A stretch of DNA of 64,000 nucleotides from positions 27,821,989-27,885,988 of the forward strand of contig NC_092572.1 in the NCBI RefSeq assembly GCF_037975245.1. The letters are read 5' to 3'. Positions 14,200-59,435 of this stretch are shown here, in pieces; positions within the stretch are counted from its first letter, which is position 1, and each line of letters starts with the position of its first letter. The notes beneath the pieces are model-generated. The model made no database searches, was not told the DNA's origin, and saw only the letters and a program-made list of their open reading frames with translations. The translations under genes were made by a program, and so were the position numbers. Source of the stretch: Apostichopus japonicus. Taxonomy: Eukaryota > Echinodermata > Holothuroidea > Aspidochirotida > Stichopodidae.

Positions 14200-14974
14200 T
14201 CATCGCAACATTTCATTTAGGATGGTGACACATCTTCTGTATTTCAATTTGCTACCTCCATTGGTGTTGTCCACTGCATTTCTCAGTTGCTGCATCTGAT
14301 CGTTGTCAAGACCTTCTATTGAGTGACTGTCAACACCATCCATGGATACAGTTCTTCCCACTGTTTGCTCACTGCCTTCTTCATCATTAGCCTCCAAGAG
14401 AGAACACAATTTTGCTTCTAGGTTGTCATCTTCCTCTTGAAACATCTCCCTTACTACTGTTGCTGTTGAGTTTGTGTTCTGTAGAAAACCATCTAGCCAA
14501 ATTTGATGAGGTGTTCTACTTTGCTCTGTTCTAATTTTATGGCTGTTCCACCCATTTCTGAACTGTTCCATGAGCTGATTGATTTCATCCAGATAGACAA
14601 ATTTAAGTGCAAACATTTCTGTGGGGCTGTCAATGTGTAAGAGGTCATTGTCTTCTAATTTATAAAATTCTTTATACAAAGTTGAAGTGACATCCTTGTG
14701 AACATCTCGCCACAGACGCTCGATTCTTTCATTATGTACTGATTGTCCAGTGATGTGGCTTCCCCGTCCACTTCCTCTTAACAAATTCATGAGAAGGGCA
14801 ACATCAATGTTTTCACTGCCATAGTCTGACCTGACACGGGAGGGAAGACCATACCTTTTTGCAGCTTGCACAAACGATCTCTGAACAACATCAGCCTGGT
14901 TAGTTGTAGAACAATTTAAGTACACAACCATGCGTGAATAACCGTCGATGCCACCATGTGTCACAAATCCCCAT
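14200..14974 (-). CDS. Exon 4: DDE core (second Asp, Glu) and acidic tail
   Basis: The acceptor ...TTTCACACAG joins to give LIRWGFVTHGGIDGYSRMVV. The exon carries VRSDYGSENID (second catalytic Asp), the glycine loop GSGRGSHITG, HNERIERLWRDV (Glu) and a C-terminal part with WNSHKIRTEQSRTPHQIW, typical of this integrase family. The last ~100 residues are acidic and Gln/Ser-rich. It ends NEML R-stop at 14200-14202. Confidence 0.85.
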
Positions 14975-17900: not shown

Positions 17901-18884
17901 TACTCAAGTTAGTAATAATGGCTGTTAGGTCTTCTTCACTCATGTTTGTGTAACGTTGTCTCATTTTCATCCCATGTTGGTAAAGGAGCTTGTACACAGC
18001 AGCAACTGAACACTTAAACTGTTGCGCCATTCTCTTTGCAGAATAACCCTTTTCATACAGGTAACGCAACTGCTCAAATGGTATTTCCAATCTCGGCCTT
18101 CCTCTTCGACCTGTTGAACAGCAAAAGTAAACATACACTGTCACTAAGAAAACAAAAACAGATTCACAATCAAACAGTGACGTAGCCAGAAATAGGATGT
18201 TTAACTTCCGCAGTCACATGCAACGTTGCATTTTGACTTATGAAAGATAATCTAGAGTGCCAAACTTGTGTGCGAGTGTAATGACATACCGTACATTATA
18301 CAACGGGAGGGGAAAGGGGACTAAGTTACACAGTACTACTACTGCCACTGGGAGTGGTACGGTAACTACTCATGCACTTGTTACAGGGAGGACAAACGTT
18401 GGGCAAGCACCGAAGGGCCAGGCCTATAAACCTATAGATGAGAGGCTATGACAAATAATACCGGGGTGGTTAAGTAGTTCAATATGAAAGACCAAAATGT
18501 TAAAAGTATACCATGGTCGGCGACAGGAACAGGCTGGTAAATGTGCCCATTAGACTGGCTCCCCGATGGTGGCTGCAACGTTCCGTCTGGCTGTGCCTGT
18601 GCGTCTGCGATAGAAAGGAGCTGATCTAGCACAGCTGCTATAGAATTGAACCTGTGCTCATCGATGCTCGCGTTAATCCGTTCTAAATTTCTCTTTGCTT
18701 GGAGAAGACGTTCTTTCGCTTCAGAAGCATTGTCATTGTCAGTTAAGAGCCGCTCTACTTCGCCCAAAATCCGAGAAATTCTGTCAAGAACGATCTGTGC
18801 TTCGTCATTTACAGCCATCGCCATGGTGAAAGTACCGCTATCGGTACCCTGTTGTCTCGCCACTGTCATTTGCATGTACTGCAC
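14200..18884 (-). CDS. Spliced integrase-domain protein with HTH (4 exons, ~522 aa)
   Basis: Exons in order: 18884-18512, 18110-17875, 17263-17079 and 14974-14200. Junction phases are 1, 0 and 2, all matching, with total coding 1569 bases including TGA. Residues ~1-125: helical, charged N-terminus. ~125-203: GRRGRPRLEIPFEQLRYL followed by a helix-turn-helix (SAKRMAQQFKCSVAAVYKLL). ~204-360: integrase-type DDE core with Asp in LWHIDGHMK, Asp in VRSDYG and Glu in ERIERLWRDV; the last two are 35 positions apart, as in retroviral and Ginger-like integrases. The tail is acidic. The family is known as integrase core-containing proteins in invertebrate and fish genomes; these enzymes cut and join DNA ends. 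No N-terminal zinc-binding HHCC is seen. Intact frame plus introns fit either a domesticated gene or an intron-bearing transposon gene. The start is the first Met (18884); internal Mets at 6, 21 and 23 are alternatives. Confidence 0.85.
15280..15450 (+). repeat. TGACCT-family repeat fragment
   Basis: Carries AATAAACAATAGGGGTCATGT, TTGTGTTTAGGTTTTCAGAG and TTGACCTCTGGTGACCTCAAA, the recurring words of the dispersed family. It abuts the left end of the CCCAGCTGGG element. Confidence 0.5.
15468..16570. mobile_element. 1.1-kb terminal-inverted-repeat element built of CCCAGCTGGG words
   Basis: The ends are inverted repeats of 23 bases (15468-15490 and 16548-16570) matching at 22 positions; both begin CCCAGCCAACAT. 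The interior is studded with CCAGCTGGG, CCCAACTGGGC, GCTGGGCTGCAGCTGGGC and similar self-complementary words, densest at both ends, with an AT-rich middle. It carries no coding capacity and lies in the last intron of the integrase-type gene. No clear target-site duplication was seen. I do not recognise the superfamily. Confidence 0.65.
16681..16735 (-). mobile_element. Possible hAT-type terminus (reverse orientation)
   Basis: GCCAGACAG...GCCGCACTGGATATCCGGTGCATCCC reads, on the minus strand, as GGGATGCACCGGATATCC..., resembling a hAT-type terminal inverted repeat and the fragment at 7466-7570. No partner end was found. It lies in the last intron of the integrase-type gene. Confidence 0.3.
17079..17263 (-). 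CDS. Exon 3: start of DDE core (first Asp)
   Basis: 185 bases with acceptor TTTTATTTTCAG and donor GTTTGT. Encodes MINGYLRSQGILVPRQ..., a basic strand pair, WGRTVARGTYFVPTPNSLWH, then IDGHMKLI with the first catalytic Asp. The splice after ...LI (phase 2) restores Arg-Trp with exon 4, exactly the family motif KLIRW. Confidence 0.85.
17875..18110 (-). CDS. Exon 2: helix-turn-helix DNA-binding segment
   Basis: 236 bases with acceptor TGTTCAACAG and donor GTTTGT. Encodes RRGRPRLEIPFEQLRYLYEK, then a resolvase/transposase-like helix-turn-helix (YSAKRMAQQFKCSVAAVYKL), a basic helix (GMKMRQRYTNMS) and an acidic helix ending HPNSGTE. GRPR resembles an AT-hook core. This part most likely reads the target or terminal DNA. 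Confidence 0.85.
18512..18884 (-). CDS. Exon 1: helical N-terminus
   Basis: Encodes ~124 residues beginning MQYMQMTVARQQGTDSGTF, then heptad-like helices (IVLDRISRILGEVERLL, AKERLLQAKRNLERINASI) and a Pro/Gln/Ser-rich linker (QPDGTLQPPSGSQSNG). It ends ...PVADH before donor GTATAC. Similar coiled-coil N-termini occur in other members of this integrase family. The start is only 40 bases from the TGATATCA array. Confidence 0.75.
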
Positions 18885-40873: not shown

Positions 40874-41107
40874 CTAATACAGCTTCTCTTGCAGGTCTGT
40901 GCGGCCAGCTGCTTTTAAAGCCTCTCCCAGTACTCTGTATGTGGCTTGACTTCCAATTCTCTTTTTCCAAGTCAATAAAATCTGATAAACAGTTTCCTTG
41001 TGTCCCTGGTTGGTATAATCTCTCTCAAGGTTATAAAGCTTTGAGTCATCTAGTCCAAGCTTTCTACCTACAGCTTTCCACTCATTTTGAATTTCCTCCG
41101 AGAGATC
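40874..41107 (-). CDS. NLR last coding exon: Death domain
   Basis: From acceptor CATATTACAG it encodes DLSEEIQNEWKAVGRKLGLD, DSKLYNLERDYTNQGHKETV, YQILLTWKKRIGSQATYRVL and GEALKAAGRTDLQEKLY-stop. The W-K-x-V-G-R-K-L-G, Y-x-x-L-x-W-x-x-R-x-G-x-x-A-T and A-x-x-x-x-G-R-x-D-L motifs are those of UNC5/ankyrin/PIDD-type Death domains. The TAG (40876-40874) is followed by CAAG and a strong donor GTAAGT, so an intron starts 4 bases after the stop. Confidence 0.9.
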   Translation of the reverse strand, partial: DLSEEIQNEWKAVGRKLGLDDSKLYNLERDYTNQGHKETVYQILLTWKKRIGSQATYRVLGEALKAAGRTDLQEKLY

Positions 41108-41313
41108 CTGTAATATGATCAGAGTTTATGTATATTGAGTGTTATCTGAGTTTAACATACATAAAGCATATCAGTTTTCTATCAGGTCCACTGTCTAAAG
41201 TATTTAATAATTTTTGATGCATTGATTACAGAGTGAAGTAAAAGTTACCGCCAACGTGTTCCAATTATTTTTCACTTACAAATTATATGATAACTGACAC
41301 CGTCTGTATATTG

Positions 41314-41344
<31 letters not shown>

Positions 41345-44300
41345 GTATATTCATTTGCCTTTGTCGTTTACCTCCATTTCATTAACATAAAGTCTGTTCA
41401 AAGTATCTCTTTCGAGATCCGGCTTTAGGATTCACAAATGATTTTTGAGTTGCTTAGCATCATGTTTGATCTCTAGAGTAAGGCAAAATATGTCACCAAA
41501 AACAGAACTAGTATTGTTCGATACAGGTGACAAATGCCTACAGTGGATTTACGACCTTCCTTACCGGTTTCGAACCTCTGGACATACAAGCAGCGTCCAT
41601 GGCCTAGTTGGTTAGTGTGTTCTCGATTTTCAACTGTTGAAGTACATTTAGATCACGTGTATTTGGAACGGACCATAAGGATTACAATTTGCAATTTTAA
41701 AATTTTGTTCCCTCACAAAGAAAGTGGGCTTGATAAAATGTTGTGCCTAATTGGTCCCAAAACATTCAAGAGCATACGACCAAGCCCTTAAGAAACTGTG
41801 CCATGTTTTATGAGCGAGCTTTAACAAATTAGTATCCGCCAATTAAAGGCTGACCGTGCGCCTCTTGCCAACAATTTGCAATGTTTACAGCTGGCACACA
41901 TTGTTTGCAACTTTTGCACAAGCAAGTTGATTGAGTCCATGTTTAACATATTTATTGATGTTTTTCTTGTTTTCTGATGTTAGGATGAAGGGAAAGATTC
42001 TGCAGCTAGCGGTTCTGATAAATTAGTTGATGCAGGACTATCTCAGTCACAGAAGAGGACTGGTGATGAAAGTCTAACTGTCAAACAACCCCTAGAAAAC
42101 ATTGATCTAGAAGTCAGAACAGAAATTCTCAGGGTAATAATTTACATATTCAAGATTCTGTTGTCCGAAAAAAGTCTTCTTTAGAACATATAACACAAAT
42201 TGGTGCTTTGTCCATACTGGCCCTTAAGGCATACCTACTTTGACATTCAAGTTCCATGGTTTGCTTGTATATATTACATCATGATTTATTTCTACTAAAA
42301 TGCTTGCCATCTGGTACTGATGCTGTTTTATGATAACTGATTTTAATGAGGTATGTTCTTGCTGCAGTTAGATTAATGAGACTGAAATGTTACAATAGTG
42401 AGTGCAGTAACCTATAAAGATATTTGACAGCATACGAACAAGCCCTCATGAATCCATGCCATGATTTATGAAAGAGCTTAACAAATTAGAGTGCGTCAAT
42501 TAAATGCTGGCTGTGCACCTTGAAAATTGCCAACAATTTGAAATGTTCACAGCTGACACACATGTTAGCAACTTGTACACAAGAAGGATACAGCCGGCAC
42601 AATGTTGGTTCATAAGTCAACTTTTGGAGATTACATACAATAAATTAAGTACTAAGCACAACTTTTCACAGCTTCAACCATTGTCTTGACACAGGATTCT
42701 GTTGTCTTGGCAAACAGTCGTTTAAGAGCATATAGCACAAATTAGTGATTTACAGTTCGTCCATACTTGCCCTTACAGCATACCTACTTTGACGTTCAAA
42801 TTCCATGGTTTCCTTGTATATGTTACATCATGATTTATTTCTACTAAACTGCTCGCCATCTTCTATAGTATACTGATGCTGTTCTATAACTGATTTAATA
42901 GTTACAGTTAGTTCCATTTACTAGACCAAATGATTTCAATAGTGAATGCAGTTTATTATGAGTTTTAACAGAGCATAGCACCAAGCCATCATGAAACCGT
43001 GCAGCATGGTTGCATGTGACAGTCCTGTTCTAGCATGGTTATGTGTACTCATATTCAGCCCTGTTCTAGCATAGTTATGTGTTCTCATACTCAGCCCTGT
43101 TCTAGCATAGTTATGTGTACTCATACTCAGCCCTGTTCTAGCATAGTTACGTGTTCTCATACTCAGCCCTGTTCTAGCATAGTTATGTGTTCTCATACTC
43201 AGCCCTGTTCTAGCATAGTTATGTGTTCTCATACTCAGCCCTGTTCTAGCATAGTTATGTGTACTCATACTCAGCCCTGTTCTAGCATAGTTATGTGTTC
43301 TCATACTCAGCCCTGTTCTAGCATAGTTATGTGTACTCATACTCAGCCCTGTTCTAGCATAGTTACGTGTTCTCATACTCAGCCCTGTTCTAGTATAGTT
43401 ACGTGTTCTCATACTCAGCCCTGTTCTAGCATAGTTATTTGTACTCATACTCAGCCCTGTTCTAGCAGAGTTATGTGTACTCATACTCAGTCCTGTTCTA
43501 GCATAGTTATGTGTTCTCATAATCAGCACGGTTCTAGCAGAGTTATGTGTTCTCATACTCAGTCCTGTTCTAGCATAGTAATGTGTTCTCATACTCAGCC
43601 CTGTTCTAGCATAGTTATGTGTTCTCATACTCAGCCCTGTTCTAGCATAGTTATGTGATCATAGTCAGCCTTGTTCTAGCATAGTTTTGTGTACCCATAC
43701 AAGTTCTCTATTAGGCCCCATGTTTAAAGATTGTATGACAAAGCACTTAATGTATTGATTACAAAATGACAAATTTCACATCATGTATTTCTATTGTTTA
43801 TTTATATCCATTGAAGCTTGACGAAGTTCGTTTATATCCAGACTCCTTCTGAGTATCTTGTGTACTACAACATGATACTAAATGATGGATCTGCAAAGCT
43901 TTTCTCAAAAAGAAAAAATAATTTATTAACTGTTAACACTTTACCCACAAAGTGGCATCTTCAACTGGTGAAGATGCATCAACTCTTGTCTGTTGGGAAA
44001 GTCTCACATCTCTTGGCTGTAATGCTTGAGAACTCCCCGAGAGAGATGTAGCCAGTACTTTCTGCGATCAGAATTAATAATACAAGTTATACAAAACTTC
44101 AAAAACAACAATTTTTAACTTTTGATCCACCTCCACACATCAATAGTCGTTTTACAAACAATAAACAATGGACATAATAGTATGAACTAAAGGAAGGGAA
44201 TGACAAAACATATTTATTTGTATAACCAGTGTGTTATACTAGATTACCATTTGTTCTTAAACCTCTTAATACATTTAAGAATTTTGAACTTTTGTCTACA

Positions 44301-47300
44301 TCCTAACATCAATGATGATTGTGTACAAACAATGGACAAAACACGAACATGATCTAGTTAAGAGTTACAAACAATCATACGACTCATTACTATTAGCTAT
44401 GAACAGTAGTAAACCATGCTCAGAAGTCTTTCAACAATTTTTAACTTTTGATCTACACACATCAAAATTTGTTCTTAAACCTCTTAACACCAAACAATTT
44501 TGAACTTTTCTCTACATCCTAACATCAATGATAGTTGTGTACAAACAATGGACACAACACGAACATGATCTAGTTAAGAGTTACAAACAATCATACGACT
44601 CATTACTATTAGCTATGAACAGTAGTAAACCAAGCTCAGAAGTCTTTCAAGTTAATATGTTAGTGTAATATGTAAAAGTTATTACCTTGCTTCCACATGT
44701 TGCCTCTATTTCCATAGGAAGTGTGTGGATTGGCATGCTTTGAGCTATTTGCTCTGTAAGCCAAGTTGGTGCAGCTACAAGTTGATTGTCACTTCTAGTT
44801 TCTCCTACTGTAAATGTAAGCAATTAGATATACTGCATATTTAGCCATGTTTGTTCTTTCTCCACAGATATCTCCTGGCCTGAGGTTGGAAACTACCTGG
44901 TTGTGGAAACACTGGTAGCTAAACTTGTACGAACTCTTATTAAAGAATATGCTTCAGACAATTGGTTGTCACATGGTAGTTTCTAATAGCCGAACTGTCT
45001 TTGAGTGTAAGTGTTGGTCAAGTGGATATGATCAATTGCACATTGAAATTCCTCCATTTCTTATATTTTACATAGTTTCTTATACTCTTAACGCATTCCA
45101 CAGCTACTCACAGTAACCACATTTTTTAAAATTATTTGCACAATGACAAAAGTATAATCAAATGTGATATGTAGAGTATCGTTGTGCACAAAGAATGTTC
45201 AATCTCAATGTCACACATCAATTTGACAATGCAGCTCTTCTCTTAATGTACAAATGTACTGTATCTGTCTTCTAAATGATCAACAGTTAATATTCATTGG
45301 CTAAAGATGGCGATTTTAATGTAGTAACCATTCTAATCAACATATTAGTGCTACTGTACATACTGTGAATATTTCAATTATTTATGAATGTCATTTTCTA
45401 TTTTTCACTAAAATAAAGTAATTTTTTCAATTGTAAGGTGATACACTCTGTATACATTCCACATTTACCTTGTGGCACCGTTGAAGGGTTACGATGATAT
45501 TCTGGTATCATGGTATTCTGACACTGTACATTGGAAACAGTTGGGACTTCTTGAGAAAAGCTTGGCATTGAATCAGTACTCTGAAATACAAAGATACAAT
45601 CAGACTTCTTCAATGTCTTCAAATAAGTTTTTATCACTCACGCTTTGACATGACTTAATTGTATATTTTTTATCTCTTAAAAAAGTTATTTATGAATCAT
45701 TCAGTATAGACAAGAGCTTAATATGAGTGTGTAACTTAAAGCAATAATTACAAACTGAATTACATTGGTAAAGATGGTACAATTTGGTATTACATTTGGC
45801 TAGAAAGCAACAATATGGAACGTGTGTCTTTACTTTCTTCATTCTATGAGCCAAATTGGCAATTTGGTAGGTTGTTAAGTCATCGTGCAGAGTATGCAAT
45901 GTTGTCAATTCCTCAAGCTCCAACATAAGATATATGTTCTGAAATGATCTAAACTCCAACATCCAACATTGTCACTGTCACTTGTAATCTGTCCTTTACA
46001 GGTTTGCTTTTCTGTTTGCTATTAACATAGTTTTACAGTCAAAATAACATTACTTTGGAAGATATGCTGAGATGACAAATATACTGAAATTTACCGTCAC
46101 TGCAGCTGTAGATTCATTAAAGCGTCTCTTCTTTGGGTGTGGGACATCTGCGGACAGTGATGGCGCAGGATTGCCTGAGAGGGATGCTGCTGATATGTCC
46201 TGCAGCTAAATATGTTGAAATGAGGTAAGACACAAAGTATTATAATATTGAATAGTAAACAAGTAGCCATAATTGGGCTTATAAGTGATCATTACTTGAC
46301 ACAATTGAGAATATTTAATGTAACACTGCAGACAAGATTACAAGTTTGACCACTGGTGAATTCACAAATTTTCATACCTTGACACCTGTTGACCTCAAAA
46401 TACCTTTCACCCTTTGATTGTTGTACTTGAGTAAATTCAACCAAGCTTTCAACCAAATTTAACCAAACTGAAAGGATACATAAGGTCAAGCAAACTTTAT
46501 TACTGAAGTTTCCCATAATTTGAATCCTATCAATCTGTATAGAGGTCAACACTCCTTTGAGTTCACCAGAGGTCAACATCATAAAACAGTAATTATCACT
46601 GTAAACTCTAAAGAAAATGTGCTAACAAGAATTAAAGATGCCAGAATGAATCCACATGAAATTATGAAACTTATACAAGTTTTCAGATTTACCATTCTTA
46701 AATATTTGTATACTTTGACAAATGGTGACCTCACTTGACCTTTAAATCTATAACAACACACAGAGTTCCTTAAAAATATAACCAGAGGGAAACCCCTCCC
46801 AGTGGTTACTTGCTTTTACTTTGCTTCCAGCAAGGAACCAAAATGGTTGATTGGGTTCAATATCTCATTCCCATAACACTATGGGTTGGGATGGGATAAC
46901 AATATGTGTACTTAAAGCACCTAACTTCAAGCGTGCATAGATCATAGCATAATTGTTAGAACAATACATAATAGCCATAATGGCTAACTAAATGCAAATA
47001 TCTGCTGTTCTTCACTGATGTGCATGCATGCACTGAGGCAGAACATATTCAATAGTTTTATAAGTAAGTAAATGTGCATCTTTACCAAAAAAAGTCAAAG
47101 AATTCACATAAGCAGCTGATAAATGATGTCAAGTGATAATTTAACAGCAAGATGAATGTATAAATGTTTACAAACCTTCAACTGGACAATCAAAGGTACT
47201 GGAACTTTCTGAGTAGCTTCAAAGACTAAAATGCAATCTTCTTCTCCAACCTTCTCAAAGACAAATGAACACCGACAGTCTACGTTGACTGCTACGTTTA

Positions 47301-50300
47301 TATAAGGAATTGTCTGCAGCTGAAAATAATTGTTATTCATCTGATAAGGGAAGGTTGCCTTAATCTGAGTATGTAAAATATGAAGCGATGTAGCTAGTCT
47401 GGGGAAAATGACTTATTAAGTCAAGGTTGCTGAAAGTATGAACAAGCATCTAGGAGATATGCAGGTTTGAAGAATGCTTCCTTTGGTTGCTAATAGCTTC
47501 TCATGACCTTTGACCTTACATTATTGATTAATGCAGCTTGGCGTCATGATATCCATGCCAAACAAAAAAGATTCATTTGAAAAATATTTCACTTTTCTGT
47601 AATTACTTCCTGAAATATCCATTGACCTCTTATCCTCTTATCCTTGCAGGAGGATCTAATATACATACATTCATACATACATACATACATCCTTGTAACA
47701 ATTTTGTGCCCATTCATCAACCCACCACTCCATAGACTTCAAACTTAAACGATCAGAATACCACCCTAGGAGGGGAGCATTTTAAAGGTTTTTATCTTCG
47801 GACCTGCCGTAACCCAAAATGACCTTAGACCTACTATTATTTAGGTGTTAGGTTTTGGAGCCCCTGAAATGGGCAAAAACTTGGACATATTCATCAGGTT
47901 TGTGCAAATGGCCTGAAAGCAACAACCTTTCAAAGTTTTGACAGACAGATAGATGCACCTTACTATGGCATTAGCTCCATTGTATGGCCTTGCCAAATGA
48001 GCTTAAAACAATGCAACTCATGAACCCCAACATCATATTTCTCTTTGGATATTAAAACATGTTACAGAATTCCAAATCCAGAGTTAAGAATGGCATAGCA
48101 TGATAAATGTAGCATGATACATGATTTAAGTAACTCAGACTGGTTGGTTAAGAATGCAGTCATTCCAATGCACACATGAATTATAACATTTGTTAATTGG
48201 TCAACATAAAAGAAATCAAAGATCATTACCTTTACTTCTTCCCCTCCTGTATATTTCCAGGACATTGGCTTTACCTCCTTAAATAGTATCTTCAAAGGCA
48301 AGTTTCCCTCTTTACAGAATAGGAACGGAATTTCTTCCAAAATTCGCAAATTATTCTTGATGGAAAACAAACGGAATTCATAAAACAAACAGATATAATA
48401 TATGTATGCATGTGTGTGAAATCAACATGCTTAGACCTAGTACTTGTGATTCAATCTCTATTAAATGTCATCTCTACTTGATATTATTATGACATTGATG
48501 CTGTTTAACAAGTTTTTCTATGTTATGAGATGAAAGCAGATTAGCCCATATACCCTCAGGCCTATCTGTATAGGTAAGCAAATAGAGCAGAGGCATTTCG
48601 TATGAATGTATGTTTGACAACAAGCCAGATGTTTAACATTAGCATTATGTAACAGACCTGTATTCCCGGAATTTGTGTTCGTATATTAGTACATTTAGCC
48701 AAACTCCTAATCCTCAATGTACTCACTTCTCGAACTAATGACTGGTACGCATACTTTTGTAGTCAAACACACATGTCTATTTCCATATTGATTATCACTG
48801 CAATTATTACCCAGATCCTGTATGGATACATTTGCTTTATATATATTTTACTTTCAAACAACTTCACAAGATTATGCATACAGTTAGTAAGCACTTGATC
48901 ATGGAACTTCATTATCATTATTATGATCATTATGAAGTGAAATCCAAAATCTTGTAAGAAATGTGAAATCTTGTTCTCTACCTGGAGGAAATTCCCTAAT
49001 ATTGTGATGTTTGTGCCTGCACATACTGTGGCTGATTTCACCATTAAAGATGTTTCTCTTCAGGTGATCAAAAGAGCTCAACCCCCCCCCCCCCCCTCCA
49101 CATCAATAACATCGCAAATAACTAGAACCATGTGTTAGAAGCTTATTGTATCACTGCTTAATTACAATAATAAACACTTAATACATTACAAACAGATGTA
49201 GCTAATAATTTATTGCAATAATGATAATCATTTACTTTGACTCACCGGTCTTTCACCTGGCAGTTTAGGGTAGAAGCCAACATGTATGGGTATTATTTTA
49301 GAAAGTGGGTTCTGGTTATGAGCAGCATAGACTTGGATCTGTTTAAATTCAACAATTTTGCCATCAATCTCATATGTCTCCCAGGAAAAGCTTTTAATCC
49401 AGATTACACAGTTTGTGTCATTCAGCTGATACAAAACATTAGGTTTTGGCCTCCACATTGGCTTAGAACCTGTATCAAAACAAAATATAGCAGTGGCCTA
49501 AAAAGTTGATACTGTCATTCCTTAATTTTCCTTTCTTTTCAAGTAAAAACTTTACAGATAATGCAGAAGTTCATAAAGTACTTCCAAGAATTATTTTGCT
49601 TGCAACCCAGTGGTACTTGTAGTGAGTTAAAATTGCACAAAAGAATCTGCTGAGGGCAGAAATTCATGCTATGCAAGACATGGATAGGTTTCATTAGGAT
49701 GGTTACATTAACATCTTTACCTAATAAGTATTATTGTGATAAAATGTTATAATCCTATTATTTCTGAAAGTCAACTTTATAACATGTATCGAATGATGAC
49801 AACTGTATTAGCTATCAACATTAAAATATGTACTGCATATCTTTGATGTAAGAAAGGAATTTGTACAATCATTAACAAGCAAATATTTCTTCATGTGAAG
49901 ACTGCTGCATGCATCAAGAGTATGAAACCTAAACACACTGTCGATTATCTATTGTGTGTTGACAACACTAAAGGCAACATAGACACCAATATAGTCTTGG
50001 TAGGTGTGACAGATGCTGCTTACCAGGAATGAACAATACATCCAGTATACATATACTGTGGGTGTGGTGTCTCTTCCATGTCTGCTTAGTCACGAGTTCC
50101 TACACTACATATATACAGTACCTTTAGCATGGTGACTGCTGTACACCATGGCTTTACGTTCACCAGTTTTCTTCAACTGCAGACAGTGAGGCAGGGTGAG
50201 TTTTGCTAACTGATGTAACTTCAGATTATCAGGAAGAAGTTCCACTACTACTGTTGAGTTACTGGTAAATGATGATTTAGACTCTTCTTGAAAACTGATT

Positions 50301-53300
50301 GGTATGATTCTCATCTGGATCAAGCATTCCTGTTCAATAGCACCACAAGGAATCTCTAGTCTAACGCCAGTCCCTGGTATCTCTAGAATCCCTCCTTCCT
50401 TGTTAACCAAAGATTGTATGCTAAGAGATGTGTCCAAGTCTATATCTATTGATGAGTGTAAAGAGAATATCATGAATAGCACCACAAATTAGTTACAAAA
50501 CAAACATGCCAGTAATCGACAATTATATAGTTTTAACATCAATCGGTGTAGTCTAGCATCACTGTTGCCTCAATAAATTATGTTTATTTGTTCTCTAAAG
50601 TGTGTCATTATAGCTCCATGGTTCAACTCCTTATTGAGCCATTGACCTTATTATTTATTTAATGCATAAGCTTTCATATAAATTATGCAAATTCAAGTCC
50701 ATAAACTTGCTGAGTATTACAGTTAGACATAGCTTTACCATCTGTGCACCTTATGTATGGTTCTGTATGAGACTCACAGATATTGTATGTTCAGGCATCA
50801 TCAAAGATTTCATTAAACAATGTTGAACAAATGGTGAAAAGGGTATCACATCTGTCGGTATACAGTGCTACATGTGTTAATAGCCAGCTTATGCAATATA
50901 AACAATCTTAACTGATCATGTTAGGTAACTCAGAGTGTGATAGAAGTGTGAAATATAACAGAGAAAGGTCACACAATGTCACTTTCCCTTTCCACTTCGA
51001 TCCAACTAGATTGGCATGTGCCATTGCACGTTTGCTTGAATCTAATGAAGCACACTGTTTATGGTGTTACCACACATAGGCTATCACTGTTCTGATTTAC
51101 TTTACCAGCTCAAGCGTGTTCTCTACATGTGGCTATGTGGGTGTCAAAATGCTACCTAAGACCTAATTCATTTTTCATCCTGGATAGTTCCACACTAAGG
51201 TCAGGAACTATGTTTATATCCCTAAAGATTGCAGGCTTTGAAGATTGCCATATCTCAGCCTATCTACTAAACTACAAACTATGTCAAAGGCTAGTGCTGC
51301 CATTGTTATTCACATTATTCAATTATTCATTATTGCTACAGTATTACATCTTCAATTATATTTTATAAAATGTTTACTTTGTAAAACTCTTCTTAACTCA
51401 ATTTCAATAAGTCAATCATGATCCCTTTTCTAAAAAAGAGTTATTCCACCATCTCCTTGGTACTGTGAATCAAAAAGTTTAAAATAAATAAGTTTAAGCT
51501 AGACACACCTGTAACTGCTTTTGTTGCTGATGGTTCATTAGAGCTCCTACTGTGTAGTCTAAACTCCATCTGGAGGAAGAAATAATTCCAGATAAATACA
51601 ATAGAAACAATTATCAATTTAGATTTGCTGGTAACTGACAGAACTTCTCCAAATCAACAATCAAAACAAATATACGATGGAAAATGCTTACAAATTTGCA
51701 TTTTAACAAATAACACTTTATCATTTGACAAAAACAAGAAAAGATTATGTTTATCTCACCGGCCATTTTCCAGTGTGCACATCTAAAGTGTGAATTACAT
51801 TGGCTCCAATGGTCCATTCAACTGCAAAGAGCATATTTGATCACATATAACTGTTGTGGTTATTGCAAATAGAACTGCAATTCTCTTAAATTAATGATTT
51901 TACTATTCGCTAAATGGTGACATTTTGTTGCCAAGAAATTGCAGTAACATCTTGTTGTAGACTAGATCTGCAAATAACTATGTGTTTGGTAAACAACTGA
52001 TTGAAAAGTAACAACTGATTGTTTACCAATTTGTGAGAAATACTGTTATGCTTGCAGAAATTAAGTGTAAGTGATAAATGAAAATCAGAGAATAGCCTCA
52101 GTCTGATCTCTCTCATGATCTTCTTTATATCAAGTACATTAAACAACCAGAAAACCAACTTACTACTGGATCTACATAGAAGTGCAAAAATTCGGCCACC
52201 CTTTACACTTGGAGTTTTTGTTGTGACAAGGTTTCTAGACTTTTGACCTCCACAAAGAAAACAAAAGGGTTCTTGCACTCATCAATGTAAAGTGAATCCA
52301 CATGCCATATATGCTTAAGTTCATTGATGCTGTAGTTTTGGAGAAGTTTGTTATTTCTACAAAGTATTCAGACTTTACAGTAACTCAAGTTATCTCAAAT
52401 GAGAACTGCTTCTCACAAACTCAGTATAGCTCTAAATTCACCCATATTTACACCATCAATATGATGCAGATTTGTGTTGCCTTTGACAAGGAGTAAAAAC
52501 TCAATTGATCCAAGTTATTTCTCTATACTTTGAGTACATTACAAAGTGCTTCAAACAAAGATGTTAGAAAACCAATGTAGATTTTACTTGTTTTAAATGT
52601 CAAGTCGACTACACATTACTTCCTTTGACTGTGTGGTAAGTATTTACCTACAACATGCTACCATGGGACTTAATTTACATAACCAAACAAAAGTGGTATT
52701 CATTAATTACTAAGTGACCCCTTACCTAACACGAATATATTCGATAAGTATTCAATAAGTATTCAAAGATTTCCTTAGTATTCAGAAAATCTACCATATA
52801 ACACACAGTACAAAATAAGTATTCGAATACTAATACGAATAACTATAAGCCTTCGTCAGAGCCGAATTATGTAAATGAGTTAAGTATTCGAATACCTGTT
52901 AGGTATTCGAATAGGTATTCGAATAGCTCTTCGAATAGCTATTCGATTAGGTATTCGAGTAGCTTTTGGAATAGCTATTTGAATACTTAGCTCATTTACA
53001 TATAAGTATTCGCTCATTTAAATAATTCGGCTCTGACGAATACTTATAGTTATTCGAATACTTATTCGCTAGTATTCGAATACTTATTCGCTAGTATTCG
53101 AATACTTGTATGCTAATTAGTTATGTTATGAAGGCTTAACAGGTTTCTGAATACTTACTTGAATACTTATTGAATACTTGTATGCTAATTAGTTCCAAGT
53201 AAGGAGAGTTAGGAATTTGGCCAGCTTGTTGTCCTAGCTTCTTGATTAAATCTGCTATTAAAAGTTGAATAACATTCACAAGGAATAAATATCTATTTGA

Positions 53301-56300
53301 AATGGAGTATTAAGCACAGAATACTAAAACAGTAGGTCTTATGAATATGATCGATGAAATTTTGGAAACACTTCAGCTATTAAATCCTCCGCGGTATATT
53401 TCAAATATTTTTGCGCTGTTCAAAGTGTAAGGGTGTTAGCAACTGAAAAAAAATGTTTGTTCTTGATCAGAGAACTCTGGGTTTGGTTGGAAGACCAAAC
53501 ACAGAGCAGATACATCAAAACTGGAAAACTCAACCGGATTGGATCAAAAGAAATTATAATTATGAATAACAAACAATATTCAGCTGATCTGGGCCCAGTC
53601 AAAGAATTAAATAAAATAACTTACAGTCGTGAGGTCACACCCAAATGTTAAAGTAAATACACTTAATTTAAAAGTCTGTTCTGGTGAGTTGGCCTGCTGG
53701 TGACATCAAGTATTCTACGACATCATATCTTCCACGACATCAGATATTCCACAACATTAGAAATAGTTAAACACAAAAAATGGTATTATGAATGTCCGAT
53801 CCCAACAAAGTATTATCCTTCAATTTATAAGCAATGGTGTCGCAGGGTATCCTTCAGTAAAATAATGTCAATATCCTCTGTAGTAAAATAATGTCCTTTA
53901 TAAGAAATAGTGTCCCGGAATATACTTTATTGTAAAATAATATCCTTTATAATAAAATAGTGTCCCAGACTGTCAGTTGAATATCACAACTTCCATAAAA
54001 TGATAAGGACTACAGTAACTTGAACTATGTAAATTAAGGTTTAAAACAAACTATCCAGCCATTAAAACTATCTTTCTCTTCTTTTGCAACTGCCTTGCTC
54101 AGATACTTATAGCCAACTGCCTAACTCGTTATACCCCTCACAAAACTCCCTTTGTTACTAAAATATACACACACAGACCCCATTTCCTGTGAGAGCTAAT
54201 TTCCAGGAAGAACAAGATAGTTGCCTAGCAACCTAGAAGAGGTAGAAGTGTAGAGGTTTTAATCCACAAGACAACATACAAATATACTGTACAAATGTAT
54301 AGCCCCTCTGTTCAGTGCACAATGCACCTAATAAACAAGTAAAACTATGGTACAAAACAAAACTTTATGTAAGAGCTGACCATCTTACAAAAGGAAATAA
54401 GTATTCGAATAGGCATTCAATGAAATAGGTGTTCGAATACTTATTGGAATAGCTATATTTAGCATTCTCTAAGCATTCGAAGGAAAGAAGTATTCGAATA
54501 CCTATTGGAATAGTTATTTTAAGTATTCAATTAGTTATTCTAAAGTCTGAATGCTTAAATTTTTGAAATACCAACTATATAGCTATTCGAATACTTAGCG
54601 AATACTTAGCGAATACTTAATAGTTATTCGAGTTGGGTAAGGGACATTGTACCTGAAATATTTCGGGATTGTAAGGCTTTCAGAATCTTGTCATCTGTCA
54701 CATCCTTCGGTGGACTTGGAAAGAGTAAACTAGGGTTAAAGAAAGTGAAGAAACAATATACACTGTTATTATATACAGAAGTTCTTAGCAGCAAAGGTTA
54801 AAATATTGAACCATGTGTTTTACTTGTTCATTTCACTGTTGAGGTTTTAATGAGTGTTTACAATGCATAGTGTCCTTTTTTCTCCATGCATTGTATATAT
54901 TTCATAAAAGTAATATTGAATGTGCATATATTTTCTATATCTTGATGAAATAGGAATGCATACATTGGTCCGTTATGTAAACAACAAAACAGTTACAAAT
55001 GAACTCTGTGTGACCTACAGAAAGATACCAACAGTTACTATTTCTTTCCTGTTGGCTTTACTTATATTCATCTTCAACTATTTTTGTCTCTATGTCCATG
55101 TAGGTATGTATTCTCAGTTTTGTTTTCATTGTTTCAATAAACGAAAGATATTAAATTTCTACTTACCATGCTGCATTAACATGTTTACAATTTAAAATGA
55201 ATTTTAGAAGGTCTTCATAATCTTTGTCGATTAGTTTCTGGTCCCATCGATCCATTTCAATAGCCTCAAGAGTTTCTAATATACCAAGCCATACATCGTC
55301 CTGTAAGACAAGGGCCTTGTCTGTAACTTTTTCAACCACATCTGAAAACTTCAGACGCTTTATTGGAACCTAAAAATGAACAGAGTGTTTCACACATTAA
55401 AACCTGACATCAGTATTCACAGATAACAGAGGGTCTATTTGAGAAATTTAAATGCCCCGTGGAATAAGGGAAGGTACAATGGCAATAGAGGACTGGGGTA
55501 AAAAATGTACTCACTAAGAGAACCAATTCAACACTGACTTGATCATAAAACATAATAAAGTATATATTACTGGGAAGTCACTCAAGCATAATTTTCGACG
55601 GGCTAAAATGTTTATCAAGCATCTTCATGCTACCAATATGTTAAGGAATATGGAGTTACTTTTAGAAATGGAAAGTGTTAAAAAAAAGTGACTGTACCTT
55701 TGATTTTGAAGCAAAGGTCACCATAGAAACTTTTGACCTCAGCAGCAGTCGACTATCTCCAGAGCTGAAGTTGATGGATTCTCTTCTACAGATCTCGGTG
55801 ACAATGTCCTTGAACTTGTGTCCTTTGTACTCATCATGCTCAGCAAAACAAAGACAGATGCAGTTCATGATGTAATCAGGAATCTCCCCATCTCCTATTT
55901 TAAAGTCTCTCATTAGAAAACTGGCAATGAAATGAAAGCTGGGAGGACAGATGTGACAAGTGAAGCGCAAGACATAATGGAGATCAGCTGGGTCTATGTT
56001 AGCCAGGTGTTCTCTGAACAATTGATACTTGTAATGGTGTTCAGTTGATTTGTGACCCCAGAAGAGGTGGGCTAAATACTTTGCTGCAAACCACTCTTGG
56101 ATTAACTTATGAAGGAATTTAACCTGTAAAGAGACATATTTTGCAGCTTTTCCTTTCTGCAAAGGTTTTGATTTCTTCTCTTGCGATTCCAATATTAGTT
56201 TTCTCTCTGATTGACTGACAGATGCTGAGAGATCAGGATCAGGGGATACCCCTCTCTTTACCTCTGAAGTAACATTAGATGTGTTCAGTGACTCATCACT

Positions 56301-59300
56301 GATGGAATCAGTCTGGGGAGTTCCACTGCCTGAGTCAGTCTGAAGATTTCTATCAGGGGAATTAAATGGAGTTCCTTCCTCAACAACAAGTATCCCAGAA
56401 TCTATCCATGCTTTGCTATTAGTGACACTTCTATCCACAAAGTCTTTCTGCCAAAACAATTGTTGGTTTCCTTTACAGAGGCCATTAAATGCAAGTTCCT
56501 CCAACGTAATGTGGGGTTCTATTGATACTTCACTCTCTAATCTGCTCTCATCCTCTTCACGAACTGATTCCTGCTGCTGGTATGACAGATGTCCCGAGGT
56601 GTCTTCCTCATCCTGCACAGAACACAGAATATCTACAATGGCCTTCACGAACGGAGTAACCCTGTCGAGCTGACCAACTTGTAACTTTCCTAATCTATCA
56701 ATGTTATGTACTAACAGCACAAAGAGTAGTGGAACATTACAAAGATCAAGAATAAATGGAACATTATCAATCAATTCCTTTACTTCTTCTTGCTTTTTGA
56801 CATCATCAGAGTAGACTTTTTCAATGTATTCATCCCTCTCATCCTCACCGAAGCTTCCTATCTTCAACATTGGACCTGGAGGTAGATGCTTGGCATAATC
56901 TGTCCTAGCTGTGATTATTACAATGCAGTTGGACAGTTTCTCCTTTGTCATTACTCTCATGACTTCTGAGGGACTTCCATCTTTGGTTCCACCATTGTAT
57001 TCTTCTAACCCATCCAATATGAGGTAGACTTTCTTCTGACCACTGTTAAGCATAGACTCAATATCCTCTTCTGTAATGGGAATGCCTTTACGGATGTAGA
57101 ACATCTTGATAGCTTGAATAATTGTCATGTCATCAACAATTTTTAAGGGCAGATAGATGACCATGGGGATATCCATAAGCTTTCCACAACACCAGTCATA
57201 GGCCAACTGAGAGGAGAGCATTGTCTTGCCGGAGCCTGGCTGTCCTTCCAGAATGATTCGAGTCTCTGCTTTTAGTCTTTCATCAGTAAAGATATCTAGG
57301 TAGTGCAGCTTACATTTTCGGTCAACTTCTCTGCTAGTTATTTTTGAACCAGAATTTGTTAAGACTAAGCGGCTGGCAATAAAGAGATCATTAGATTTCC
57401 ATTGACAAGACTTCATCCAGGGGACAGGAGTCATTGTTTCAAACCAACTCTTCATCTTCTGTTGTAAACATTTCAGGAATAAGCTCTCGTTGTCTTTAAA
57501 ACAAGGAAACAGAAAGCACAGTTCAATTTATATTGAAACAAGTTAAAATCTTTCACAATTTATGACAATATAAAGAACATCTACCATACTGAAAAACAAG
57601 TGTGCTTTGATATCAATAGTTTGGGCAATCTCGTAACACTGTATCTTTCGTAACATCTACAGTAGTATAATCTTCAAATGTAAAGGTAACTCACACCTAA
57701 CACAAACTAAGACATGTGTCATTGCTCAAACATGCTAGTCAGTTTAAAAATTACTCAGTAATACAAACAGCAATAACAAATAGTTTCATACATCCAGACT
57801 TGAAACAATTGGAAACGCAGATGTTTTTATATTTCATTCATACCATCAGATACTGTTCTCTATCTGCAATTTATTTTCAAAGACTACATGTACCACTATT
57901 GAAAAATCCAAATTTAAAGATTTTATTTTATTTTAGAGACAAACATTGCACAATGATTGCTGTCATAAATGGAAAGAATTGATACTGTCCTTATTTATTT
58001 GTCACTGATCAAGTAGGACTCCTCCATAATTAGGAGCAGTGTTTAATTGTGAAGTCATTTGAGTACACTGCAAACTGCAGCTTCCTGGGACACTACTAAA
58101 ACATTTTCAAAGGATTAATATCATAACTTTAATTTTACAGGAGAAAGAGCTGTTGGTATAGTCACTGTATGACATCACAGATTACACAGTAGAACAATGC
58201 ACTCATCACACTAAAGTGAAAACCTACATTATTATATTTCTCAACAACAGACAATGCTATGAAGCTGTGAGTTGCATCAATGTGCTTCAGTTCAAAACAT
58301 ATTTTGACATCTCATTCTTCATTATCCCTAAAATATCCTGTAATCCACACATATGATTTTTAGATAATGAGTGCATTTTGTGTGTTTAACTGCTTTCGAG
58401 CTATGAAGTCTTACGTCAGGAATGTTCCTTAAAACTGGCACAACACTTGTACCAGTGGGGTGTAAGGTTTGTAACATACACATGAATTTACAATACCTTC
58501 ATCTTGTGCCTTTGTTTTGTCAGAAAGTGCCAAGGACTGGTATTCGTGTATCTTAGCTACTGCCTGGAGAAGACGATATTCCTCTAAAGGAGTCTCTAAT
58601 TTGCTGACATCAGAAGGATTAATGATACCCATCTTATCAATTGTCAGGAGGAAGGAGAGTCCTGGATTCTGACTGGAGATAACTGTCTTCTTGTTCTTAT
58701 CAGTAACTTCAAAGTTATCACACAGTTTCACTGTTATGGAAAATGTCAAATGAGCAGAGAGGCCGGCGAGGAATCTATCGTATTCAGTTTCTTGATCTGA
58801 AATGTTTAAGGTAAAACATTAAATTAAGTTTCCAGTTTTTGTTAAATATCCACAGATACGTACAGGCACACTGATAAATGCATAATCCACATCATGGCAC
58901 AGGGTGACTTTTGCTCACTTGTACATATGTACATATGTAAGTACTATGTTTTGGTGTGCACATTTTGGTTGCCAGCATCTAGAATAAATCACCACCTGTG
59001 TTATGTATCAATACTTAAAGTGGGATCTTTCTGGGGGTAGGGGTGGGGAAGGGGATAGGGCAAGTTGGGGGCAGGGGTATGGCTTTTTAAGTAAGTGCAT
59101 TTTGGAAGTACCAAAGGTGAAGCAAAAGACATAATTACAAGAGAGCTTGTGATTATTGGCCTACCTCTCAGCTTCATGTACGTCTCTGTTAGTAAGTGAG
59201 TATGGTTGATCTTCAGCTCAGTGAGTGCATCAGTTAATCGATTCACATTTGAAGGGTGTATGTATCCTCTCTCTTCAAGGGCAAGCAGAAAGTTCTTGGA

Positions 59301-59435
59301 GTACAAGGGACTTGTAATAATGGTCTTCACTTGATCGGGTGGTAGTGAAAAGTAGCGGCCTAAATTCCCACAGTCAGTTTGGGTAAGCTTTGAAGAAAGT
59401 TCTTCTTTGAGATGGCTGAAGGTGAAGATGGATGC
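40874..59435 (-). CDS. NLR-type protein: DED-DED-NACHT-ZU5-UPA-Death (5' partial, 16 exons)
   Basis: Exons 5'->3': 59435-59165, 58796-58497, 57493-55698, 55369-55167, 54729-54653, 52247-52164, 51821-51760, 51569-51509, 50445-50122, 49469-49246, 48355-48230, 47319-47176, 46205-46095, 45580-45469, 44807-44686, 41107-40874. All borders are AG/GT and every phase fits, giving 4251 bases, 1416 residues and a TAG. Order: two death-effector-like domains (~1-90, 91-190), NACHT ATPase (Walker A GQPGSGKT ~274-281, Walker B LILDGLEE ~348-355), helical region with the NLR motif FLHKLIQEWFAAKYL, linker, ZU5 (~952-1090), UPA-like (~1091-1224), basic Ser/Pro-rich linker, Death domain (1340-1416). No LRRs. 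NLRs oligomerise on sensing danger; DEDs recruit caspase-8-type proteases and Death domains recruit adaptors. ZU5-UPA-Death is the tail of PIDD and UNC5. Likely cytosolic innate-immune or cell-death sensor. The start codon lies upstream of 59435. Confidence 0.85.
41318..41350. repeat. (TA)n microsatellite
   Basis: An uninterrupted TA run of about 13-14 dinucleotides inside the last intron of the NLR-type gene. Confidence 0.85.
41768..42912 (+). repeat. Tandem duplication of a ~540-660-bp unit
   Basis: 41768-42350 and 42428-42912 share ordered blocks: GCATACGACCAAGCCC.../GCATACGAACAAGCCC..., GCCAACAATTTG...GTTTACAGCTG.CACACA, GATTCTGTTGTC and CATACCTACTTTGACATTCAAG...TTACATCATGATTTATTTCTACTAAA. 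A third start (AGCATAGCACCAAGCC) at 42971 runs into the 36-bp minisatellite. Only the first copy contains the exon candidate at 41984-42133. Confidence 0.7.
41984..42133 (+). CDS. Candidate plus-strand exon within an NLR intron
   Basis: After a pyrimidine-rich acceptor (TTTTCTTGTTTTCTGATGTTAG) an open 50-codon block reads DEGKDSAASGSDKLVDAGLS..., QKRTGDESLTVKQPLENIDL, EVRTEILR. It ends at AGG|GTAATA. Both ends are phase 0. Composition is protein-like (charged, polar), but no domain is recognised and no partner exons were found. It is antisense to the NLR-type gene. Confidence 0.3.
43020..43700. repeat. 36-bp minisatellite, ~18-19 copies, open in both strands
   Basis: Unit: CAGCCCTGTTCTAGCATAGT followed by TATGTGTTCTCATACT. 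Copies differ by a few bases (TTATGTGTA/TTACGTGTT, AGTCCTG). Because 36 bases equal 12 codons and the unit has no stops in at least one frame on each strand, long frames appear: 42936-43628 minus (repeat MRTHNYARTGLS) and 43035-43658 plus (repeat VMCTHTQPCSSI). There are no splice or start signals, so it is annotated as repeat, not as gene. Confidence 0.9.
44280..44665 (+). repeat. Near-identical direct duplication (~150 bp, offset ~218 bp)
   Basis: 44283-44440 and 44500-44650 share CTACATCCTAACATCAATGA, TGTACAAACAATGGACA.AAC, ACGAACATGATCTAGTTAAG and the following ~80 bases almost exactly. A shorter, more diverged copy precedes it (44125-44200). The second copy ends about 35 bases from the splice donor of NLR exon 44807-44686. 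Confidence 0.75.
44686..46205 (-). CDS. NLR exons: disordered linker with basic cluster
   Basis: 46205-46095 (LQDISAASLSGNPAPSLS, then PHPKKRRFNESTAAVT), 45580-45469 (STDSMPSFSQEVPTVSNVQC...) and 44807-44686 (VGETRSDNQLVAAPTWLTEQ...). Ser/Pro/Thr-rich. The PKKRR cluster is a textbook monopartite nuclear-localisation pattern. The first exon is phase 0 at both ends and could be skipped. Confidence 0.7.
46330..46860 (+). repeat. TGACCT-family repeat
   Basis: Recurrent words CACCTGTTGACCTCAAAATACC, CAGAGGTCAACATCATAAAAC and GGTGACCTCACTTGACCTTT, followed by the family tail CAGCAAGGAACCAAAATGG. Lies in the intron between NLR exons 47319-47176 and 46205-46095. Confidence 0.5.
47176..48355 (-). CDS. 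NLR exons: UPA-like domain
   Basis: 48355-48230 (NNLRILEEIPFLFCKEGNLP..., SWKYTGGEEVK) and 47319-47176 (LQTIPYINVAVNVDCRCSFV..., CILVFEATQKVPVPLIVQLK) are symmetric phase-0 exons of 42 and 48 codons. Alternating hydrophobic strands with G-x-x-P-L-x-I-x-x-K-E and a final V-x-L-x fit the UPA domain that follows ZU5 in UNC5/PIDD/ankyrin. UPA helps oligomerise released C-terminal fragments in NLRP1/CARD8. Confidence 0.7.
47430..47692 (+). repeat. TGACCT-family repeat joined to a SINE tail
   Basis: TGACCTTTGACCT at 47504-47516 (DR1) and CCATTGACCTCTTATCC are followed at 47645 by CTTGCAGGAGGATCTAATATACATAC... and an (ATAC)n run. This is the same 3' end as the SINE at 20120-20372, so a 5'-truncated SINE copy abuts the repeat. 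Confidence 0.6.
49080..49097. repeat. C-run microsatellite
   Basis: An uninterrupted run of about 16 C in an NLR intron. Similar G/C runs are at 20485, 27645, 29138, 30559, 38611 and 63601. Confidence 0.8.
49246..49469 (-). CDS. NLR exon: end of ZU5 and start of UPA, with F-S site
   Basis: Encodes MWRPKPNVLYQLNDTNCVIW, then IKSFSWETYEIDGK and IQVYAAHNQNPLSKIIPIHV. The last ZU5 strand reads ...W-I-K-S-F-S-W, where PIDD has H-F-S-W and NLRP1 has S-F-S. The F-S is at about residues 1087-1088 of the visible chain. The following I-x-V-Y-A-A strand starts the UPA-like domain. Confidence 0.85.
50122..50445 (-). CDS. NLR exon: ZU5 domain (N-terminal part)
   Basis: Encodes VNKEGGILEIPGTGVRLEIP, CGAIEQECLIQMRIIPISF... 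and VVVELLPDNLKLHQLAKLTL..., the ZU5 hallmarks: G-G-x-L-x-x-x-x-x-G-V-x-L-x-I-P-x-G-A-I, then the strand with P-x-x-x-x-F-x-x-P-x-x-L-x-L-P-H. ZU5 domains occur in ZO-1, UNC5, ankyrins, PIDD and the FIIND of NLRP1/CARD8. Confidence 0.9.
51509..55369 (-). CDS. NLR exons 4-8: linker between NACHT and ZU5
   Basis: Five small exons: 55369-55167 (VPIKRLKFSDVVEKVTDK..., helical, KDYEDLLKFILNCKH), 54729-54653 (PSPPKDVTDDKILKALQSRN), 52247-52164 (KSRNLVTTKTPSVKGGRIFA), 51821-51760 (IEWTIGANVIHTLDVHTGKW) and 51569-51509 (MEFRLHSRSSNEPSATKAVT). The first looks like an extra helical bundle; the rest is beta or disordered. I recognise no named domain. The intron between 54653 and 52247 hosts the 1.9-kb TATTCGAATA element. 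Confidence 0.7.
52719..54643. mobile_element. 1.9-kb terminal-inverted-repeat element built of TATTCGAATA words
   Basis: Left end CCCTTACCTAACACGAATA (52719-52737) and right end CCCTTACCCAACTCGAATA (complement of 54625-54643) match at 17 of 19 positions. Both sub-terminal parts (52719-53190 and 54390-54643) are packed with AAGTATTCGAATACTTA-type self-complementary words. The middle holds ordinary AT-rich sequence and a small direct repeat (AAAATAATGTCCTTTATAA) near 53855-53955. It has no coding capacity. No target-site duplication was evident. It sits in the NLR intron between exons 54729-54653 and 52247-52164, its right end only 9 bases from the donor side of exon 54653. Confidence 0.7.
55698..57493 (-). 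CDS. NLR exon: NACHT ATPase and helical extension
   Basis: A 1796-base exon, long as usual for NACHT. After a helix (LFLKCLQQKMKSWFETM) come RIILEGQPGSGKTMLSSQLA (Walker A), MVIYLPLK, KVYLILDGLEEYNG (Walker B with the extended acidic pair), IVIITARTDYAKHLPPG (sensor-1-like), an insert rich in Ser/Asp/Glu (~residues 490-625 of the chain, likely disordered), then VKFLHKLIQEWFAAKYLAHL, the NACHT-associated helical motif. It carries no LRRs. The large acidic Ser-rich insert within the helical part is atypical. Confidence 0.9.
58497..58796 (-). CDS. NLR exon: second death-effector-like domain
   Basis: 100 codons from acceptor AACATTTCAG. Encodes DQETEYDRFLAGLSAHLTFS..., LSFLLTIDKMGIINPSDVSK and LETPLEEYRLLQAVAKIHEY. 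It has the same helix order as the preceding exon, with INPSDVSKLETPLEE aligning to IHPSNVNRLTDALTE. Tandem DEDs are the layout of caspase-8/10 and cFLIP and are unusual in an NLR. A 3' linker (LSDKTKAQDEG) leads to the NACHT exon. Confidence 0.7.
59165..59435 (-). CDS. NLR exon: first death-effector-like domain
   Basis: Encodes FTFSHLKEELSSKLTQTDCG, NLGRYFSLPPDQVKTI and NFLLALEERGYIHPSNVNRL..., LLTETYMKLRG. The six-helix pattern and the L-x-x-R-G-Y-I-x-P-x-N-x-x-x-L segment match DEDs (compare caspase-8 L-Q-E-K-x-x-L-x-x-x-N-L-x-F-L). It begins at an acceptor (TTCCATAG) with an in-frame stop just upstream, so a 5' exon with the start must exist to the right. It ends in phase 1 before GTAGGC. 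Confidence 0.75.

Follow-up and report, generated by a model that had tools for sequence, protein, structure and literature searches.

The best-known self-cutting NLR (nucleotide-binding, leucine-rich repeat receptor) is vertebrate NLRP1, whose domains run PYD-NACHT-LRR-FIIND-CARD (LRR, leucine-rich repeat), and CARD8 is its relative. CARD8 and NLRP1 are reported to cut themselves at the sequence SF/S, and PIDD at HF/S (PMC3210808). Here I describe a gene of the sea cucumber Apostichopus japonicus that encodes tandem DEDs, a NACHT, and a ZU5-UPA-Death tail in one chain, with an SF/S motif at the border of ZU5 and UPA. The gene lies in a stretch of 64,000 nucleotides (assembly GCF_037975245.1, contig NC_092572.1, positions 27,821,989 to 27,885,988 of the forward strand). 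This whole stretch, called the window, was analysed, and the coordinates below are its own. The motif was absent from the original prediction made from this DNA, which had proposed the domain order.

In the corrected model, the gene has 16 exons spread over 59435 to 40874 of the minus strand, their acceptors AG, their donors GT, and their phases in agreement. The chain they encode has 1427 residues, no internal stop, and no start codon within the window. Its parts are given here one per line, where P0001, P0002, and so on are labels of family proteins, all of them deposited predictions, and E is the expect value.

59165..59435, minus strand: exon 1 of the window model, an internal exon of the gene; DED 1; 96% to P0001 276-366; Pfam DED 0.001, below cut-off
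58497..58796, minus strand: exon 2; DED 2; the DED1 and DED2 halves of the family align with each other (hhalign E 8.2e-18)
55698..57493, minus strand: exon 3; NACHT and the helical parts that follow, with an insert; Pfam NACHT 3.6e-17; 98.7% to P0001 463-1063
57222..57245, minus strand: Walker A GQPGSGKT, read from the sequence
55167..55369, minus strand: exon 4; linker; 100% to P0001
54653..54729, minus strand: exon 5; linker; 100% to P0001
53159..53254, minus strand: sixth exon of the original prediction, rejected; no P0001 counterpart; donor in repeat-like sequence
51760..51821, minus strand: exon 6; linker; 91% to P0001
51509..51569, minus strand: exon 7; linker; 86% to P0001
50122..50445, minus strand: exon 8; ZU5; Pfam ZU5 8e-11
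50129..50137, minus strand: SHH, with the two His upstream of the presumed cut, read from the sequence
49246..49469, minus strand: exon 9; last part of ZU5, the SFS motif, first part of UPA; corrected model
49384..49392, minus strand: SFS motif, followed by W; presumed cut between F (49387-49389) and S (49384-49386); read from the sequence
48230..48355, minus strand: exon 10; UPA; corrected model, UNC5B profile match
47176..47319, minus strand: exon 11; UPA; corrected model, UNC5B profile match
46095..46205, minus strand: exon 12; tail, interval between UPA and Death; tblastn, corrected model
45469..45580, minus strand: exon 13; tail; tblastn, corrected model
44686..44807, minus strand: exon 14; tail; tblastn, corrected model
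43945..44061, minus strand: exon 15; tail, missed in the original prediction; 97.6% to P0001 1578-1618
40874..41107, minus strand: exon 16; Death domain and stop codon (40876-40874); Pfam Death 6.9e-16; best PDB match RIPK1 2.1e-8

P0001, an A. japonicus protein, is 90% identical over 100% of the 1420-residue chain rebuilt from the exons first proposed (the product had been put at 1416 residues). When 52 proteins were compared with the window by tblastn, the pieces of P0001 lined up along the minus strand in their proper order between 59435 and 40877. To judge from the sequence, the proposed architecture is genuine and can be read as a single gene, and its domain order is more than a chance arrangement, because full-length relatives occur in two species. 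Fifteen of the sixteen phase-matched exons first proposed are matched by relatives. The remaining one, 53254-53159, must go: P0001 joins the flanking exons directly (...RNISVEWTIG...). The linker intron that holds it contains, by eye, AT-rich palindrome-like repeats of the 'tattcgaata' type at about 52600-54700. A pseudogene was also considered and rejected, since all 16 exons are open and have proper borders.

Position 59435 is an internal 3' splice site, and the exon starting there matches P0001 from residue 276. For residues 1-275 of P0001, tblastn at E 1e-3 gave no hit in the window, and therefore the gene may continue past the high edge of the window (beyond 64000) or may have lost that part. 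The intron before the Death exon holds two features of its own. At 41993-42133, on the plus strand, lies a 47-residue fragment 87% identical to residues 1662-1708 of P0011, from the tail of that family member, and this is probably an inverted relic. At 42936-43658 there is a minisatellite-like repeat that is open in both directions (open reading frames of 240 and 212 codons).

By sequence similarity, the window gene is no one-off but belongs to a large family in sea cucumbers. Among 7987 scored candidates, the 1420-residue chain had 52 hits at E <= 0.001, of which 50 carry the name of A. japonicus or Holothuria leucospilota and the weak P0052 was left out, and two further protein searches (7996 and 4017 candidates scored) added 15 more, all from these species. 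All 65 species-named relatives come from these two sea cucumbers; candidates in each search were chosen by shared words, so this says nothing on absence from other echinoderms. The family set of 66 consists of 90% clusters, isoforms included, and is not a gene count. Some members were deposited under names such as NLRC5, NLRP10, UNC5D, and ZO-1. Local BLAST (E 1e-4) placed a propeller in 45 of the 66, DED in 60, NACHT in 62, ZU5-UPA in 55, and Death in 40. NACHT stands ahead of ZU5-UPA in 50/66, DED-NACHT-ZU5/UPA-Death occurs in one chain in 33/66, from two species, and all of NHL-DED-NACHT-ZU5-UPA-Death is in order in 28/66.

The family plan is NHL propeller-DED-DED-NACHT-ZU5-UPA-Death. The N-terminal 275 or so residues of the relatives are predicted to form a six-bladed NHL-like propeller, an assignment made from the fold alone, the Pfam NHL family not being found in P0021 at E <= 0.1. 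In all 45 proteins with a propeller, the DED follows within 20 residues. The chain of the original prediction begins with the DEDs; they do precede the NACHT, but in 45/66 relatives the propeller precedes them. Some members have repeated units, and P0059 (3183 residues) has four tandem NHL-...-ZU5UPA-Death units, with no NACHT detected. In P0006, a long N-terminal extension (about 1-830), which by eye has coiled-coil and TRIM-like parts, replaces the usual propeller start.

The NACHT, ZU5, and Death domains of the spliced chain pass the Pfam cut-offs (E 1.2e-16, 4.7e-9, and 3.4e-14, respectively), and the NACHT contains Walker A GQPGSGKT and a Walker B-type LILDGLEE (DG-EE). DED (0.001) and UPA (0.14-0.15) miss the cut-offs on the window sequence alone. 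The original prediction had named just such a failure as grounds for giving it up, but profiles of the family support both domains. Among family DED pairs, 13/14 match Pfam DED at E <= 1, the best at 5.3e-9, and 8/28 whole family proteins match at E <= 0.1. Two adjacent six-helix DEDs are supported by the PDB profile, Pfam, and hhalign of one half against the other. The family ZU5-UPA profile matches UNC5B across both domains (9.9e-15), a UNC5B profile match runs on into Death, and the predicted model of the relative P0050 matches UNC5B over ZU5 and UPA. In both sequence and fold, the tail is closest to UNC5B. The tail fold search used the P0050 model only, whose first 460 or so residues are of low confidence, and it covers only the second ZU5-UPA unit. 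In the N-terminal half, the fold-search lists are filled by propellers and NLRs, and the DED assignment comes from profiles. The UPA and DED assignments are thus supported at the level of the family sequences.

The spliced chain, whose 5' end is missing, has 11 Pfam matches at E <= 1, none of them to an LRR, PYD, or CARD, in keeping with the claim that the protein has no LRRs. The claim of an NLRP1-like plan in an invertebrate, DED-DED-NACHT-linker-ZU5-UPA-Death in one chain, is borne out by the order of the domains, the fit of the phases, and the relatives. The description of the DEDs as caspase-8-type is fair as to fold class, the best PDB profile match of the tandem DEDs being cFLIP (E 0.0028), with viral FLIP lower. 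It is less so as to RxDL (R.DL), the charge-triad motif of tandem-DED proteins, which was not found in residues 1-190 of the window chain. With that motif missing there, it is no more than conjecture that the protein recruits a DED caspase directly.

The two halves of the protein differ in how closely they are kept. When the window protein is compared with P0001-P0019, all from A. japonicus, identity is 85-98% for DED (median 93), 57-98 for ZU5 (median 69), 39-93 for the first UPA part (median 55; 18/19 matched), 26-90 for the second UPA part (median 43; 18/19 matched), and 41-94 for Death (median 68). Four proteins (P0013, P0015, P0016, and P0017) make the point individually, with 97-98% in DED, 87-89% in NACHT, and only 28-47% in the UPA parts. 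NACHT values of about 50% (P0002, P0008, P0010, P0012, P0014, and P0019) reflect split matches and are not read as divergence. Because identities are high in DED and NACHT and lower in ZU5, UPA, and Death, the output half diverges more, as sequences go, than the DED-NACHT half. Different exons of the window also fit different paralogs best: exon 11 is 88% identical to P0002 and 65% to P0001, exon 16 is 95% identical to P0003 and 88% to P0001. This may reflect recombination or gene conversion between paralogs, or an allelic difference.

Then there is the border of ZU5 and UPA, which in the window protein reads WIKSFSW and so contains the SF/S motif of CARD8 and NLRP1. The family was scanned for every SHH followed by F-x-W, with the Phe 28-32 residues past the second His and x left free. 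Sixty-three SHH fit the scan and eight did not. In those that fit, x was Ser in 44 and Cys in 19 (30 and 19 in the 49 unique stretches), and SHH...F-[Ser/Cys]-W is present in 63/77 family ZU5-UPA copies found by BLAST. The residue before the Phe varies in these 63 (S 29, N 17, R 7, T 5, G 3, H 2). In CARD8, the Ser before the Phe is reported to be nearly dispensable, whereas cleavage depends on His-270 and, to a lesser degree, on Glu-279 (PMC3210808). An objection that the family cannot cut itself for want of the His in PIDD's HF/S was rejected, since CARD8 and NLRP1 use SF/S, as does the window protein (PMC3210808).

I propose, building on the gene, its order, its family, its conserved residues, and its folds (from profiles and the predicted model of relatives), that the protein is an NLR-like receptor with NLRP1/PIDD-like self-cutting and a releasable UPA-Death piece. 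Cleavage, sensing, location, partners, and outcome belong to the proposal, which draws on analogy and towards which I lean slightly. The NHL-like propeller would sense or dock, and the NACHT would act as a nucleotide-dependent switch. Once folded, the protein would cut itself at the ZU5/UPA border, at the bond from Phe to Ser (to Cys in some relatives), the way CARD8, NLRP1, and PIDD do. Its two halves would stay associated, ZU5 held against UPA and Death kept silent, until the N-terminal half was opened by the NACHT switch or destroyed, freeing the UPA-Death piece. This piece would then cluster and recruit a Death-domain partner. UPA-driven clustering is reported in NLRP1/CARD8 (PMC7794386). 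Tandem DEDs clustered by the NACHT might provide a second output, of the FADD/caspase-8/FLIP type.

Several points weigh against this proposal. Human NLRP1 is reported to have a helper Glu nine residues past its catalytic His (H1186, E1195; PMC9700037), and the window protein has Arg in that place; the 63 copies have Arg in 35, Glu in 24, and Lys in 4. In CARD8, loss of Glu-279 is reported to reduce cleavage significantly (PMC3210808). The distance from His to Ser is 31 in the window protein versus 27 in CARD8, human NLRP1, and rNLRP1, and it is by its spacing and conservation that the second His of SHH is taken to be the catalytic one. The copies share descent and are not independent of one another. 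UNC5B, the best match of the tail, has no such site. The sensing role of the propeller is a guess, as are all the partners. Finally, the 14 copies outside the 63, sorted by eye, include some with altered or partial sites. Four retain Cys with a changed Phe or Trp (FCR in P0025, LCW in P0039, and LCC in the second copies of P0028 and P0038, which also lack SHH), and three have no recognisable site (P0030, P0064, and P0065). Two (in P0026 and P0061) still have SFCW or NFSW but no complete SHH in the segment, and five are incomplete, ending before the site or beginning after it (P0019, P0041, P0056, one of P0061, and P0063). On the sequences, the site is widely kept as Phe-Ser/Cys, though lost from a minority of copies, and the window protein does not retain the helper acid.

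A different reading of these facts is that the ZU5-UPA-Death tail is a closed, uncut module like that of UNC5 or the ankyrins, opened when the NACHT oligomerises, and that F-Ser/Cys-W is structural only. The closeness of the tail to UNC5B suits it, as do the Arg of the window protein and the loss of the motif in a few copies. However, UNC5B itself has neither Phe nor Ser at the position (LGT in the profile alignment), 63/77 copies keep SHH with F-x-W, and x is always Ser or Cys. If the position mattered for structure only, Ala, Thr, or Gly should have turned up there too. I consider this reading doubtful, if still a serious contender. The copies without a site move my estimate of neither reading, because they are few and the Phe-Ser of the window protein is intact.

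The protein might instead be mainly an inhibitor or scaffold, its FLIP-like DEDs serving as a decoy for caspase-8/FADD and its Death tail titrating adaptors. That the tandem DEDs are closest to cFLIP and show no RxDL in the window fits this well enough, but the intact Walker A and DG-EE suggest an active switch, and expansion together with C-terminal divergence would resemble the evolution of receptors, which makes the idea improbable. That two genes, DED-NACHT and ZU5-UPA-Death, were fused by gene prediction is very hard to credit: some members do end after NACHT (P0021, P0022, P0046, and P0058, for example) and P0050 consists of ZU5-UPA and Death alone, but all exon phases of the window fit, and one-chain predictions in half of the family set, 33/66 in two species, are strong evidence if not transcript proof.

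If the self-cutting proposal is extended to the family, sea cucumbers would run a large set of self-cutting NLRs, with near-constant DED-NACHT halves, divergent UPA-Death outputs, and exchange of Ser and Cys at the cut residue. I offer this tentatively, as falling somewhat short of an even bet. If the cut really happens, the family would be an invertebrate counterpart of the NLRP1/CARD8 inflammasome sensors, autoproteolytic release of a death fold by an NLR would not be a speciality of vertebrate NLRP1, and outputs, not sensors, would be what diversifies. A widely kept F-Ser/Cys-W site in an expanded family would make it directly testable whether such release arose before the vertebrates or evolved repeatedly. 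Ser and Cys are the residues best suited to self-cutting chemistry, and their exchange among relatives is a natural test of it. It would also tie outputs through DED and through Death to a single receptor, in an animal that lacks adaptive immunity.

Elsewhere in the window, three minus-strand open reading frames (14203-15045, 16973-17482, and 17839-18213) match an integrase core (rva_4, best 6.3e-73) and a helix-turn-helix, and look like a transposon-like element. A plus-strand open reading frame of 364 residues (10003-11094) has a C-terminal HECT match (2.6e-7). Scans of the window with Rfam (gathering threshold) and for tRNA found none.

The family proteins are already deposited as predictions, and the new point is the SF/S motif at the ZU5/UPA border. 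A description of an NHL-DED-DED-NACHT-ZU5-UPA-Death family was not found in the open-access titles and abstract starts listed (most subscription papers lie outside that scope) for echinoderm NACHT with ZU5 and Death, sea cucumber NLRs, invertebrate FIIND, and ZU5 with sea cucumber. A study of TRADD-N domains (eLife 2021, PMC8195603) reports them fused to FIIND and to UPA-ZU5, and therefore ZU5/FIIND in animal immunity was in itself already known beyond NLRP1/CARD8. In a preprint of 2026, 'NLR family CARD domain-containing proteins' are cited as expanded in the genome of a sea cucumber ('japonicus') (PMC13228809). The A. japonicus NLRs reported, AjNLRC4 and AjNLR-new, are described with Ig and NACHT domains.

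Among invertebrate NLRs, those of sea urchin, Chiridota heheva, amphioxus, and Hydra resemble the window protein in having a death-fold domain (Death/DED) before the NACHT. In C. heheva, 24 of 53 NLRs are reported to have an N-terminal death/DED and only one to have LRRs (PMC8913654), and NACHT with DED is reported in Hydra (PMC13133943). The available parts of these descriptions, on which the comparison is made, mention neither a ZU5-UPA-Death tail nor an NHL propeller. The window protein shows no match to the C-terminal LRRs that a bona fide NLR has, and its Walker A and B place it with the NACHT NTPases and NLR-like receptors.

With cFLIP and caspase-8 the window protein shares two DEDs in tandem, but it has no caspase part and no RxDL, and a NACHT follows its DEDs. 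UNC5B and the ankyrins provide the best sequence and fold matches of its ZU5-UPA, but the F-S site is absent from UNC5B. UNC5 is a membrane receptor and the ankyrins are scaffolds; neither is known to have a NACHT. PIDD1 has a ZU5-UPA-Death tail with an F/S autocleavage-type motif, as here, whereas the window protein has NACHT and DEDs in place of LRRs, one ZU5-UPA unit, and S-F-S in place of H-F-S. From NLRP1 and CARD8 it differs in having Death for CARD, tandem DEDs for PYD (with an NHL-like propeller in most relatives), no LRR match, Arg for the helper Glu, and, in some relatives, a Cys nucleophile, so that the NLRP1 order is not reproduced in full. What it shares with them is ZU5-UPA followed by a death-fold domain, SF/S at the ZU5/UPA border, and, as in NLRP1, a NACHT upstream.

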